From contig JAAYOP010000088.1 in the NCBI GenBank assembly GCA_012520295.1, forward strand, positions 1 to 64,000: a stretch of 64,000 bases of DNA. The letters run 5' to 3'. The number at the start of each line of letters is the position of its first letter. Position 1 is the first letter of the stretch. The notes beneath the pieces were generated by a model, which worked only from the letters and a program-made list of their open reading frames with translations, did not search any database and was not told the origin of the DNA. Shown here piece after piece: positions 4,657-37,310 of this stretch. The position numbers and the translations under genes are program-made. The stretch comes from Clostridiales bacterium. GTDB taxonomy: Bacteria > Bacillota > Clostridia > Oscillospirales > Oscillospiraceae.

Positions 4657-6460
4657 CTATGCTGTCTCCAGGGCGTATTTCTCCGCCTGCTTTTTGAACA
4701 TTTCGGCGTATTTTCCGCCAAGTCTCATCAATTCGTCGTGTATGCCACACTCCAGAATACGGCCTTCCTCCACCAGATAAATCCTGTCTGCGTCGCGGAT
4801 TGTGCTGAGCCTGTGGGCAATGACAATCGTGGTTTCGGGGCGTGTGCGATCCAGCACCAGCTTGTTGAGTTCGTATTCTGCAAAGGGGTCAAGGGCCGCA
4901 GTCGGCTCGTCAAGAAGCAGCAGACCGAAGCTTCCAGTCAAAAGGCGCGCCAGGGCAAATTTCTGCATCTCGCCGCCGGACAGCACCACGCCCTTGTCGT
5001 CAAACTCATGGGTCATTGTGGCGGAAAGACCGCCCTCCTCTTCAAGAAGGCGGGACAGTCCCACCTTCCTTAGAATTTCCGACAGTTTTTCATCGTCTGC
5101 GTCCCTGTATGCGCGCAAATTTTCCGCCACGGTGATTGAGTATACCGATGAATCTTGAAATGCTATTCCCACTGCGTCCCGCAGCTTTCTGACATCATAT
5201 TCCTTGATTGACCTGCCGTCTATTCTTATATCCCCTTCATTCACATCATAGAGCCTGAGCAGCAGCTTCATAAGCGTGGTTTTTCCCGCGCCGTTTTCGC
5301 CTACTATGGCGATCTTTTCTCCCGGTTCTATTTTCATTGACAAACCGTCTATAACATATTTTTTCTCTTCATCCTCAGACTGCGAGTATGAAAAGCGGAC
5401 ATTGCGCAGTTCTATTCCCAGGGGCTTGTTTTCCGGGCATAGGCCCACGCCGTGCTTTGTCTCTATTTCAGACTTTATATCAAAGAATTTTCGCACACGA
5501 TCCATATACTTGGTAACACGCTGCAGGGATGTGATCTGATACATAACGTTGGACAGGCCGTTGCGCAGCATAGTTGTCGCGGTTAAAAGGGCAGAGTATT
5601 TGGCCACATTCGCCATGTCTCCGCTTACAACACTTTTTACAATCAGGGCAACGCTGACAAAAAACGTTATATTCTGCAGCAATACCGATAATACTTGACA
5701 TTTTGCCAGCCGAAAAGCAAACTTCAGTACTACACCCGCGTTTTCTTCCGCGGCATCATCATAGCCTTTTAAGAAAAAGTCCCTCAGCCTGGTGGATTTC
5801 AGGTCTGCTGCAGGCTCTACTGTGTAGAACATGCGCTGGAAGTATCTCAGACGACGGTCGGACTCCAGCTGCTCCTCAAATCGCTCAATCCAATGGGCAT
5901 TGGTCTTCATATTCACATATGCTCCGGCCAGGACGCTTGTAAAAGCAACCAGCAGCATCCAGGGTCCTACTACGGCAATATACGTTGCCATGGCCACAAA
6001 CTGGGCTGCGTTCTGGACCGTATTTTCAATGATGCTCCGGGCGCTCTCTATCTGACTGGACAGGTTTTGGGCAGCCCAGGTAAAATCGGCATAAAACTCC
6101 GCAGAGTCATAATAGCGGTAATCCGTCTCCAGAGCTCGCTTATATATTTCGCGGTTTACCTGGTTGCGCAGACGTGTACTTTTAACATCCATATACACAG
6201 CCTGCATTAACTGGGTCATCGTCCACAGCAGAATATTCGCCAGAGCTATAAATCCGGCTATTGAAAGTATTTTTCCATATGGGAAACCATTGACAAGGGC
6301 ATTGATAATCGCGCTGCTGGTGTAGACCTGCAAAAGAGAGTTCAATAGGGCCCCAGGCGGCCCAAAAGCAGATTGTAACTATTATGTATCCGAGAGCATA
6401 TCGCTTGTAAAACCGCATAAGAAAAACGAGATTTGCAAACTCGATCTTTACTTTTTTCAT
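4657..6460 (-). pseudogene. ABC exporter half-transporter, frameshifted near its N-terminus
   Basis: A full-length ABC exporter subunit of about 600 residues is present in two frames. Translation should begin at ATG 6460, where GGAGG lies six bases upstream, giving MKKVKIEFANLVFLMRFYKR and a first membrane segment ending FWAAW. The frame changes at about 6350, within TGGGGCCC; dropping one base from the G-run restores WALLNSLLQVYTSS and the rest of the protein. The ATPase is complete: GENGAGKTTL, LSGGEMQKFALARL, LLLDEPTAALDP, IAHRLSTI. A start at 6345 would lack the first transmembrane helix and has no ribosome site. Either a young pseudogene or a homopolymer error. Confidence 0.75.
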
Positions 6461-6556
6461 ACTTGCCTCCGAATACGCTTCTTTTGTATTCGCCATTCTT
6501 TGGCAATATAGCATATCACTGTTCACTTTTCAACCTTTTTTATATATTTGTAATAA

Positions 6557-8723: not shown

Positions 8724-9992
8724 TTAACCATCGATCCCTTCCATTTTGAAAATCACGGGACGTACGCCGTCCGGACAAGAAGCTATATGTACCTCATCAC
8801 GATTGTAAACCCATCCGCCCGACGCGAGAACATGGGCAAAGGCAGCAATCGACTGCCAGGCTGGCGGGCAAAACCCCTCCGGCATATCAATGCCGTGGGG
8901 ACCTGTTGTATAAAAAACGTCCCCTTCTTTCAACATTGTGCAGGGCCCCTTTTCATAGGGCGGATAGCTTTCCGCCAAATCCTTAATATATAGCGTTCTC
9001 AAAACGGTTATTTTACATCTTCCCATTAAAAAATCCTCCAATCTTTTATAAGCAAAGCCGCATTTCTTCATATTAAACTGATTTATGCTTTTTTTCAACA
9101 CGCCTGCTATCATTTTTTCCGGGTTTACATGGACCATGCAGTGCTTGACACCCTCGAAATAATTCTCAATCACGTCATGTACATTATGGGCAATCTCATG
9201 GGCAGATGACAATGTGTCTTCGCCATCTGCACAGATTTCAACATCCACATATATTTTATTGCCGAAAAGCCTTGTTTTTATTTGGTCAATACCTATAACA
9301 CCTTCCTGTTTCAGGATTATGCTTTTCATCTGCTCTATAATCTCTCCGTCACATGATTTATCTGTCATCTTCCCCACGGCATCCAAAAATATTGATACGG
9401 CCGCTTTGACGACAAACAGGCATATGACTATGCTCGCTATTGAATCCGAAACCGGAAAGCCAAGCCTTGCGCCCACAACCCCCGCCAGGCTGCCAATCGA
9501 GGAGAAGGCATCCGAGCGATGATGCCATGCGTCCGCCATCAGTGCCGGCGAATCTATTTTCTTTGCCGCCCCTCTCGTGTACCAGTACATCCATTCCTTT
9601 ATAACTATGGAGGCCAGAGCAGCAACCAGGGCCAGAGCGCCGGGAACAATCAATTTGTCATGCTCCCCGGATATAATTTTTTGGGCTCCGCGGTAGCCTA
9701 TGCCAATACCAATCAAGCATAAAACGGTCGCCAGTATGATCGCCGCCACATTTTCAAATCGTTCATGCCCATAGGGATGGTCGTTATCCGCATCCTTGTC
9801 GGACATTTTTATGCCGATTATAACGATAAATGTGCTCAGTACATCGGAAATCGTATGCACTGCGTCAGAGACCAGGGCCGTTGAAGCTGCAAAAATACCG
9901 GCAAAAAGCTTAAAAGCGCCGAGTAACAGGTTGATTAAAATGGTAACTCCGGAATTATTCATGGCAATTTGCCGGTTCGATTTGGTCTTCAC
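8724..9992 (-). CDS. Cation diffusion facilitator fused to a TIGR04076 domain
   Basis: 422 residues from GTG 9992 (GGAGG seven bases upstream). Residues 1 to about 210 form a six-helix CDF exporter with the metal-site pairs SDAVHTISD (helix 2) and ADAWHHRSD (helix 5), followed by the CDF cytoplasmic domain to about 300. From about residue 323 the protein becomes a TIGR04076-type domain: GRCKITVLRT, KGPCTMLKEGDVF, MPEGFCPPAW, ASCPDGVRPVIFK. CDF proteins export divalent metals by proton antiport. The NiCo-type riboswitch in front argues for Ni2+/Co2+. The TIGR04076 domain has no known function; its Cys residues could bind metal. The fusion is unusual, and an internal ribosome site may release the domain separately. 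Confidence 0.85.
   Translation of the reverse strand: MKTKSNRQIAMNNSGVTILINLLLGAFKLFAGIFAASTALVSDAVHTISDVLSTFIVIIGIKMSDKDADNDHPYGHERFENVAAIILATVLCLIGIGIGYRGAQKIISGEHDKLIVPGALALVAALASIVIKEWMYWYTRGAAKKIDSPALMADAWHHRSDAFSSIGSLAGVVGARLGFPVSDSIASIVICLFVVKAAVSIFLDAVGKMTDKSCDGEIIEQMKSIILKQEGVIGIDQIKTRLFGNKIYVDVEICADGEDTLSSAHEIAHNVHDVIENYFEGVKHCMVHVNPEKMIAGVLKKSINQFNMKKCGFAYKRLEDFLMGRCKITVLRTLYIKDLAESYPPYEKGPCTMLKEGDVFYTTGPHGIDMPEGFCPPAWQSIAAFAHVLASGGWVYNRDEVHIASCPDGVRPVIFKMEGIDG
9024..9039 (-). promoter_or_regulatory. Internal Shine-Dalgarno and ATG for the TIGR04076 domain
   Basis: Within the CDF gene, GGAGG is followed eight bases later by an in-frame ATG at 9026, exactly where the TIGR04076 domain begins (MGRCKITV). 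This would allow a free product of about 100 residues, the normal size of stand-alone TIGR04076 proteins. Confidence 0.6.
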
Positions 9993-10032
9993 ATTCTTAC
10001 CTCCACAGATCTATTGTTTTTTATGCAAATGG

Positions 10033-10165
10033 CGGAAAAGAGAGAAAGGCACATCCATGGAACTTATTACTGTCCCACAGATGTGCCTTATAAAACACTT
10101 CTGCTGCTGATAAAACAGCCCGGCTCCTGTTCCCTTTGCGGGTCTATGGCCTGATCAGTTTGTTT
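10033..10165 (-). promoter_or_regulatory. NiCo (czcD) riboswitch with terminator
   Basis: Read on the minus strand, the leader of the CDF gene carries the elements I recall from the NiCo riboswitch: ACTGATCAGG, a CCC/GGG hairpin, AGCCGGGCTG closed by CAGC, then an AGAAGTG / CACATCT stem followed by TGTGGGACAGT. A second stem, AAGGCACATC with GATGTGCCTT (10046-10055 and 10080-10089) followed by TTTCTCTCTTTTCC, uses the same bases as the last aptamer stem. The two are mutually exclusive, so the terminator should form without metal and read-through should occur when Ni2+ or Co2+ is bound. Confidence comes from motif recall, not a search. Confidence 0.75.
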
Positions 10166-10186
10166 TAAGGGATAAATTCTTTACAT

Positions 10187-10511: not shown

Positions 10512-12281
10512 TTACACAAAATACTTCATGATATCAAATTTACCAAGGCTGCGTGCATACGCGCCGGTGATATTAAGGCTCAGCCCCGTGTGGCTCACGC
10601 CGAAGAAGAAACCACTGTCATGCAAAATCTTCGGGTTGAATACCACCAGACCCTGGCTGCCGTTGCAGTTTTCCTCCACCCATTGGAACAAATACGCATC
10701 GTCACGAAGCTTGATATAGAAGCAGGGACTGCTCCAGGTTGCTCCTCCGCTATTATCGCCCTGGAATATGGTCCAGCTGTAGCTCTCCGGTGAACTGTAT
10801 ACATGGATAGAGCTCATTGTGTCGCTATATGCCCATGCGTAGCATTTTCCGACCAAGTCTGTGGTGAAATGGTGACGGCGCGCGAAAGGTGGCACAATAT
10901 CACCGTATTCCAGAACGCCGAACTTGGCATAGGCTCCGATTTCCCACTCACTGTTCCAGCTGCCGATTTGGGCGTGTACCGTTGTGGCAAGCCCGGTGGA
11001 AAAATCGACCGCCTGGGTAACATTTGCGTAATTGGGGTCGCCGGTCAGCATATGGGAAAATAGAATTATATCCTTTGCCGGCTCAAAAGCTACATATTTT
11101 TCCTCCTGCCATGTTCCGCCCGGATAGCGCCATTTCAGCCTGTCCTTGCTGACAACGTTGTATTCGTACACAGGCTCCTTCGTCCCGGCCCAGGGAGCTG
11201 CCACATGTTTCTCACCGTCCAGCTTCACCTTAAACTGCTTGCCCACAAGATAGTCGGAGAAGGGCAGATTGTTGCCGCTGGCCATTATATTGGGGCCGCC
11301 GAACTCAAAAATTCGCTGGGACTCGGCCGCGTGCTTAAGGGCCTCTTCCCTGGTCATGGGAATATCAATATCCCTGGGGCGATATGAATACCTTGCGCCC
11401 TTCCCTTTCAGCATTGCCATGGGCGGCTCTTTGTCACCGAATGTGGTAATCTTCTCCAGATGGGCCGCGTCTCCGGTTATCTCAAGCTTCGCGGTATGCG
11501 TGGCATAGACAAGCTCATCATCCTCACCGAAACCAAACTCTACGCCTACCGCCTCCATGTCGAAGAAATTCATGACTTCAATCCACATTTTCCCGCTGAA
11601 CTCAACATCCCAGCGGGCATAAATGTAGAACTTATCGTCAATGACTATGTAGTCCGAGGGGTTTGTCATCGTGATGCCGCCCTGGGGATCGCTGAGCTCT
11701 ACCAGGGTGGAACAGACGACACTGGGGAAGAAGGTCAGAAGCTCATAGCCGTTGTCGTACTGCCAGTGCAGACCACGCCCCTCAATGCGGTTGGTGGTAG
11801 TGTGTAGTTTCCCGGGCTTTTCATTGTTTCCACAGTCTGCCCAGCCGAAATGATAGTGCCGCTGTATCTCCCGGGGAATCTCACGTGTCCCGGTGGGCTC
11901 CCTCATACCGAAAAGGTCTCCTCCCACAGGTACCTCAATGCCGAACCAGGTTTCAAACGCGGTGATTGCATAGGTCTCTGTGTCAATTACCAGGTGCCAG
12001 CCACGGGTTGTGCCCGGTATCAGGTGCGTTAACAAAACCACGCACCCTAAAGAAATGGCGGTATATGGAGCGTTATAACTCTTTCCGTTCTCAATCACAG
12101 TCAGATTGCCGGTGTCGAGAATCTTATACTCCAGCTGTTCAGGAGCAAATTCCCCTTCAAGCCGGGCTTTGAATGTCCAACCTACAATAAGGTCGCATTC
12201 CGGGCCGTCCGCCTTGGGCTTCGCGGCAACTTTTTTATCAATTTCTTCTTTGCTCATGGGATTAAAGTTAGTAAAAAACAT
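10512..12281 (-). CDS. MoaF-like protein with internal duplication
   Basis: 589 residues, GGAGG in front of ATG 12281, no signal peptide. The protein resembles the MoaF family of lipocalin-like beta-barrels (N and C domains), named for a molybdenum-cofactor gene neighbourhood but without a proven reaction. It is about twice the normal length. Residues 30-290 and 345-585 repeat the same order: a VGWTFKARL / VGKQFKVKL barrel start, a W-rich strand, RHYHF / RRHHF, then a second barrel. It lies on the same strand as the MFS gene upstream, about 225 bases apart. It could bind or transform a small aromatic or organic acid, in line with the neighbouring enzymes, but that is inference. Confidence 0.55.
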   Translation of the reverse strand: MFFTNFNPMSKEEIDKKVAAKPKADGPECDLIVGWTFKARLEGEFAPEQLEYKILDTGNLTVIENGKSYNAPYTAISLGCVVLLTHLIPGTTRGWHLVIDTETYAITAFETWFGIEVPVGGDLFGMREPTGTREIPREIQRHYHFGWADCGNNEKPGKLHTTTNRIEGRGLHWQYDNGYELLTFFPSVVCSTLVELSDPQGGITMTNPSDYIVIDDKFYIYARWDVEFSGKMWIEVMNFFDMEAVGVEFGFGEDDELVYATHTAKLEITGDAAHLEKITTFGDKEPPMAMLKGKGARYSYRPRDIDIPMTREEALKHAAESQRIFEFGGPNIMASGNNLPFSDYLVGKQFKVKLDGEKHVAAPWAGTKEPVYEYNVVSKDRLKWRYPGGTWQEEKYVAFEPAKDIILFSHMLTGDPNYANVTQAVDFSTGLATTVHAQIGSWNSEWEIGAYAKFGVLEYGDIVPPFARRHHFTTDLVGKCYAWAYSDTMSSIHVYSSPESYSWTIFQGDNSGGATWSSPCFYIKLRDDAYLFQWVEENCNGSQGLVVFNPKILHDSGFFFGVSHTGLSLNITGAYARSLGKFDIMKYFV

Positions 12282-37271: not shown

Positions 37272-37310
37272 GTTATATACACATAACCATTGGATAATGA
37301 GGATAAAAAT

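Follow-up and report, generated by a model that had tools for sequence, protein, structure and literature searches.

The window considered here, a stretch of 64,000 nucleotides from an anaerobic Clostridiales bacterium (contig JAAYOP010000088.1), raises the question of whether a gene that joins a metal exporter to a small uncharacterised protein is a working two-product gene or an accident at the border between two genes. On the minus strand, a single open frame of 422 codons runs from a GTG at 9992 to a stop codon at 8724 and comprises a CDF exporter (residues 16-293; 9114-9947), a linker of 29 residues (294-322; 9027-9113) and a TIGR04076 domain of 100 codons with its own ATG (8727-9026; profile match at residues 323-421). 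The in-frame joint between the two families, first proposed in a sequence-only reading of this DNA, is thus borne out, both profiles scoring above their cut-offs over this 422-residue frame. As developed below, the fusion is real as an open frame with a real internal start, but it probably arose by accident, recently and in one lineage, or else reflects an error of assembly. The next gene downstream, on the same strand after a gap of 39 nt, encodes a DUF4180 protein (PF13788; 8322-8684) and may belong to the same transcript; in 133 loci, DUF4180 was not found near relatives of CDF or TIGR04076.

Regarding the exporter, it is matched by NCBIfam TIGR01297 at residues 16-293 with 219.5 bits (cut-off 82.35) and, in Pfam, by Cation_efflux (PF01545, residues 17-206) and ZT_dimer (PF16916, residues 214-292), both above the gathering score. 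It carries the paired H/DxxxD motifs of the metal site (H46-TIS-D50 and H157-HRS-D161), which, by comparison with YiiP, we take to lie in TM2 and TM5. A GGAGG Shine-Dalgarno sequence (10000-10004, minus strand) precedes the GTG by 7 nt. Farther upstream, 75 nt before the GTG and beyond the interval covered by the sequence-only reading, a NiCo (czcD) riboswitch aptamer (10068-10168, minus strand) is recognized by Rfam RF02683 over the full model (positions 1-96; 59.2 bits, E 4.7e-11, gathering score 37). This is the sole copy of RF02683 in the genome, and of 13 loci of CDF relatives that were scanned, 10 have the same riboswitch. A terminator-like hairpin of 18 pairs with a T-rich tail (10046-10089, minus strand), located by consensus scan only, extends over the aptamer's 3' end and corresponds to the expected expression platform; aptamer and terminator hairpin together are the usual design for Co/Ni-induced read-through, while the riboswitch class may respond to Fe(II) too (PMC7689651). 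The Ni/Co context that had been assigned to the exporter hence finds backing in the RF02683 match, and this context suggests that the CDF part of the fusion may export Co/Ni.

The TIGR04076 part is equally well delimited. Its profile match (65.2 bits, cut-off 33) spans model positions 1-90 of 91 and begins precisely at Met323, so that the proposed placement of a GGAGG-8-ATG signal exactly at the domain boundary proved correct: the GGAGG lies at 9035-9039 (minus strand), 8 nt before the ATG at 9026-9024. Such a motif is by itself uncommon, not rare, since in this genome a GGAGG stands 5-11 nt before 22 of 1539 in-frame ATGs inside long frames (1.4%). It gains meaning because it sits at the domain boundary and because relatives start there. 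Indeed, the seven relatives nearest to this domain, 60-91% identical and found by a scan of species genomes, are all separate genes; in all seven the homologous methionine is the start, and in six it follows a GGAGG by 6-11 nt. The separate gene of locus L070 is 91% identical over 96 amino acids, and DNA similarity to this closest relative (L062/L070; 77% over 8740-9026 to L062) begins exactly at the internal ATG. As the separate relatives begin at this codon, comparison identifies it as the genuine ancestral start of a once separate TIGR04076 gene. By its anatomy, the locus would likely give two products, a CDF exporter with a C-terminal passenger and a free TIGR04076 protein made from its own Shine-Dalgarno sequence; the free protein of about 100 residues that had been postulated is therefore likely, given an ancestral ATG at which seven separate relatives start. 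A separate small protein is moreover the usual form of TIGR04076, although this is not part of the model definition, and the fusion departs from it, every other checked match being separate.

How, then, did the two parts come to share a frame? The CDF relatives, whose identity with the CDF part of the fusion reaches 64%, give the expected end of the exporter: those at 51-64% identity stop at HVNP itself or up to about 17 residues beyond it. In the single congener compared (G001), the CDF is just 39% identical and no TIGR04076 match was found. At the corresponding place in the window, the DNA reads CCG GAA AAA ATG ATA G, with a run of six A's (9113-9118, minus strand) directly before TGA TAG in the +1 frame (9107-9112, minus strand), presumably the original CDF stop, as the CDF relatives end there. 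With five A's, the same DNA would read CCG GAA AAA TGA TAG, that is, ...CMVHVNPEK followed by two stop codons. A shifted-frame stop near the expected end is common alone, and the rarity lies in the adjacent A6 run. When we counted runs of at least six whose shortening by one puts an adjacent stop in frame, 0.73% of coding and 1.7% of intergenic positions in this genome passed by chance. Since the fusion has no second case among the matches listed, the CDF relatives end at HVNP and an A6 run precedes the shifted stops, a one-base insertion or an assembly error explains the fusion best.

The linker agrees with such an origin. It is absent from the CDF relatives and from the TIGR04076 relatives alike, its GC content is 30% versus 47% and 50% in the two flanking domains, and it is probably a former intergenic stretch together with the leader of the TIGR04076 gene. 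Its open frame needs no selection, as a stretch of 28 codons taken from between genes has a 29% chance of being open. Codon usage does not mark it plainly as non-coding, for its score is exceeded by 12% of open intergenic stretches and by 65% of coding ones. A promoter-like TTGAAA-17-TAATAT within the linker (9098-9070) is not claimed, since the region has seven such sites where chance alone would give 4.4.

Among the accounts of this joint, we favor a one-base insertion, from A5 to A6, which would most likely be a recent mutation joining two adjacent genes, with both proteins still produced and induced by Co/Ni; we hold this to be probable, though well short of certain. Originally, two independent genes would have stood side by side behind the NiCo riboswitch, a CDF gene ending in HVNPEK-TGATAG and a TIGR04076 gene beginning 80 nt later. 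One additional A in the run preceding the CDF stop would then have removed this stop, and the 80-nt gap would have come to be read as a linker. From the Co/Ni-induced transcript, two proteins would arise: the exporter, its cytosolic C-terminal end now extended by TIGR04076 as a passenger, and free TIGR04076 initiated at the ancestral ATG, perhaps via translational coupling. It counts against this explanation that the species is sampled by one genome, which has A6, and that the A5 state was not seen there. The same run before TGA TAG could also point to a contingency locus, in which slippage at the six A's, during replication, during transcription or as a +1 ribosomal slip on AAA-A-TGA, toggles between the fused and unfused exporter. 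Runs of six A's are, however, short for phase variation, a single state is observed in the one genome, and the arrangement is found in no relative examined, all of which makes such a switch highly improbable.

An assembly or sequencing error would also explain the joint: the genome would truly have A5, the CDF would end at HVNPEK-TGA, and the two genes would be merely adjacent, with no fusion at all. A single homopolymer base would have changed, the assembly is a draft of 157 contigs, and a second apparent one-base shift occurs 2.5 kb away, near 6340, in an ABC transporter. In this ABC exporter gene (4657-6526, minus strand), the first ~45 codons (ORF 6182-6526) are out of frame with the rest (4657-6345), the frame switching at a GGGGCCC stretch near 6350-6340 as by a one-base indel. 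Sequencing error is also one usual cause of single-genome frame transitions, whereas shifts near the 3' end of a gene, as here, are more likely real indels (Antonov et al. 2013, PMC3711429). Frame switches number 21 per 246 kb in this genome versus 46 per 340 kb in a relative (G007), mostly at ordinary gene junctions, and this lack of excess favors a real mutation over an error. In addition, six consecutive A's are few for a homopolymer error in a short-read assembly, which weighs against an error here if the genome was assembled from short reads. An error is thus unlikely on balance, while keeping appreciable weight beside the recent one-base insertion that we prefer.

A whole-protein search covering 99 relatives and 394 genomes from the order retrieved no other CDF-TIGR04076 fusion among the matches listed; likewise, when TIGR04076 was searched for in 99 relatives and in 391 genomes from the class, the match in the window alone shares a frame with a CDF among roughly 200 listed. 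These two sets overlap in part and amount to about 490 genomes per query, and the further fusions whose existence the sequence-only reading had proposed to check were accordingly not encountered among the matches listed. Two suspiciously long frames under TIGR04076 matches (in G051 and G026) contained no CDF on reading, and two plasmid records and one phage record have TIGR04076 only in distant form (35-40% identity). Nor do the two genes travel together: a CDF adjoins TIGR04076 in none of 44 other TIGR04076 loci, and TIGR04076 adjoins a CDF in none of 40 other CDF loci. Around TIGR04076 (100 frames in about 42 loci), the neighbors include carbamoyltransferases (4), SDR enzymes (3) and ABC transporters (2), and no metal-handling family recurs (at least twice) among the 25 commonest neighbor families.

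These data bear on the idea of a selected two-product gene, in which TIGR04076 would be tethered as a metal- or redox-responsive domain and also released in free form, in both cases tied to Co/Ni efflux. It can call on two domains in one frame behind a NiCo riboswitch, an intact internal Shine-Dalgarno sequence, a TIGR04076 alignment with invariant C29 and C84 and a nearly invariant C53, and a linker codon usage compatible with coding. Against this, the fusion occurs in one genome only among the matches listed, CDF and TIGR04076 are unlinked elsewhere, the recurrent neighbors of TIGR04076 are carbamoyltransferase and SDR enzymes rather than metal genes, and the joint bears the mark of a one-base slip; we therefore regard selection for both products as improbable. 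A variant with a young fusion, in which one Co/Ni-induced message gives tethered and free TIGR04076 and the exporter has acquired the domain as a cytosolic sensor or a tail for metal handling, appears more doubtful still. The functional fusion first envisaged thus fares poorly, as the joint, with its one-base slip at A6 before a double stop, comes close to the recent accidental fusion that the same reading had named as its counter-case. The proposed link of TIGR04076 to Ni/Co handling fares no better: the parts are unlinked elsewhere and the neighbors are not metal genes, so that the sole argument for it is the unique fusion, and as this looks accidental, the link is unsupported. A fusion seen once is a poor guide to function; while 'Rosetta stone' logic would give TIGR04076 a Ni/Co role, comparison points to a one-base accident, and the fusion says little about the function of the small protein. 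If real, it would be a just-born fusion in which the start signal of the downstream gene survives inside the new gene.

The role of TIGR04076 may be better approached through its fold. A role in redox reactions or in iron-cluster metabolism has been named as a possibility for this uncharacterised family (PMC8667426). AlphaFold models of the TIGR04076 part of the window (mean pLDDT 92) and of a second member (L079, 4001-4300; mean pLDDT 89) both have as their best three matches the N-terminal domain of XdhC/CoxI (2we8, 2we7, 3on5), with Z 6.6-7.9 over 73-77 residues at 2.3-2.4 A and the next match at Z 4.1, although Z values below 8 may reflect a common arrangement. Kinship by sequence to the corresponding family PF02625 was not retained, with no Pfam match and an hhalign probability of 0.3% or less. 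Foldseek alone with the TIGR04076 model returned nothing below E 1. A look for relatives of TIGR04076 among solved structures likewise yielded none, only chance matches to viral glycoproteins. The predicted XdhC-like fold is hence a weak and separate lead, though a better one to the role of TIGR04076 than the fusion. Elsewhere in the window, a molybdenum/tungsten cofactor riboswitch (RF01055; 37072-37219, plus strand; 72.8 bits) lies shortly before an ORF at 37290, and a MoaF-domain protein of 589 residues (10512-12281, minus strand) is 85% identical to one in the relative G007 (L106:14204-15967), which is the genome with the closest TIGR04076 too. Of note, in four lineages (L071, L072, L073 and L074) the gene immediately after TIGR04076 encodes an aspartate/ornithine carbamoyltransferase. 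The homologous carbamoyltransferase of the present genome stands at the very start of a contig (C138) that begins 89 bases before it, and a second TIGR04076 gene may lie beside it.

Three known systems help to place this locus. The TIGR04076 genes of Oscillospirales-type bacteria (L070-L076) share with it the domain, its length and the start methionine, with a GGAGG leader in six of seven; they are, however, separate genes, several of them next to an SDR gene or a gene for an aspartate/ornithine carbamoyltransferase, and never occur with a CDF. With the GeneTack 'singletons', frame transitions confined to a single genome (PMC3711429), it has in common that one genome is concerned, that adjacent genes are joined and that the downstream gene keeps its ribosome-binding site, but the transition in the window removes a stop to give one open frame rather than breaking one. 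Finally, like the CDF exporters of Clostridia controlled by NiCo/czcD riboswitches (PMC7689651), it has an RF02683 aptamer and a terminator-like hairpin before the CDF gene; whereas those riboswitch-controlled relatives end at HVNP, the copy in the window alone runs on into TIGR04076.
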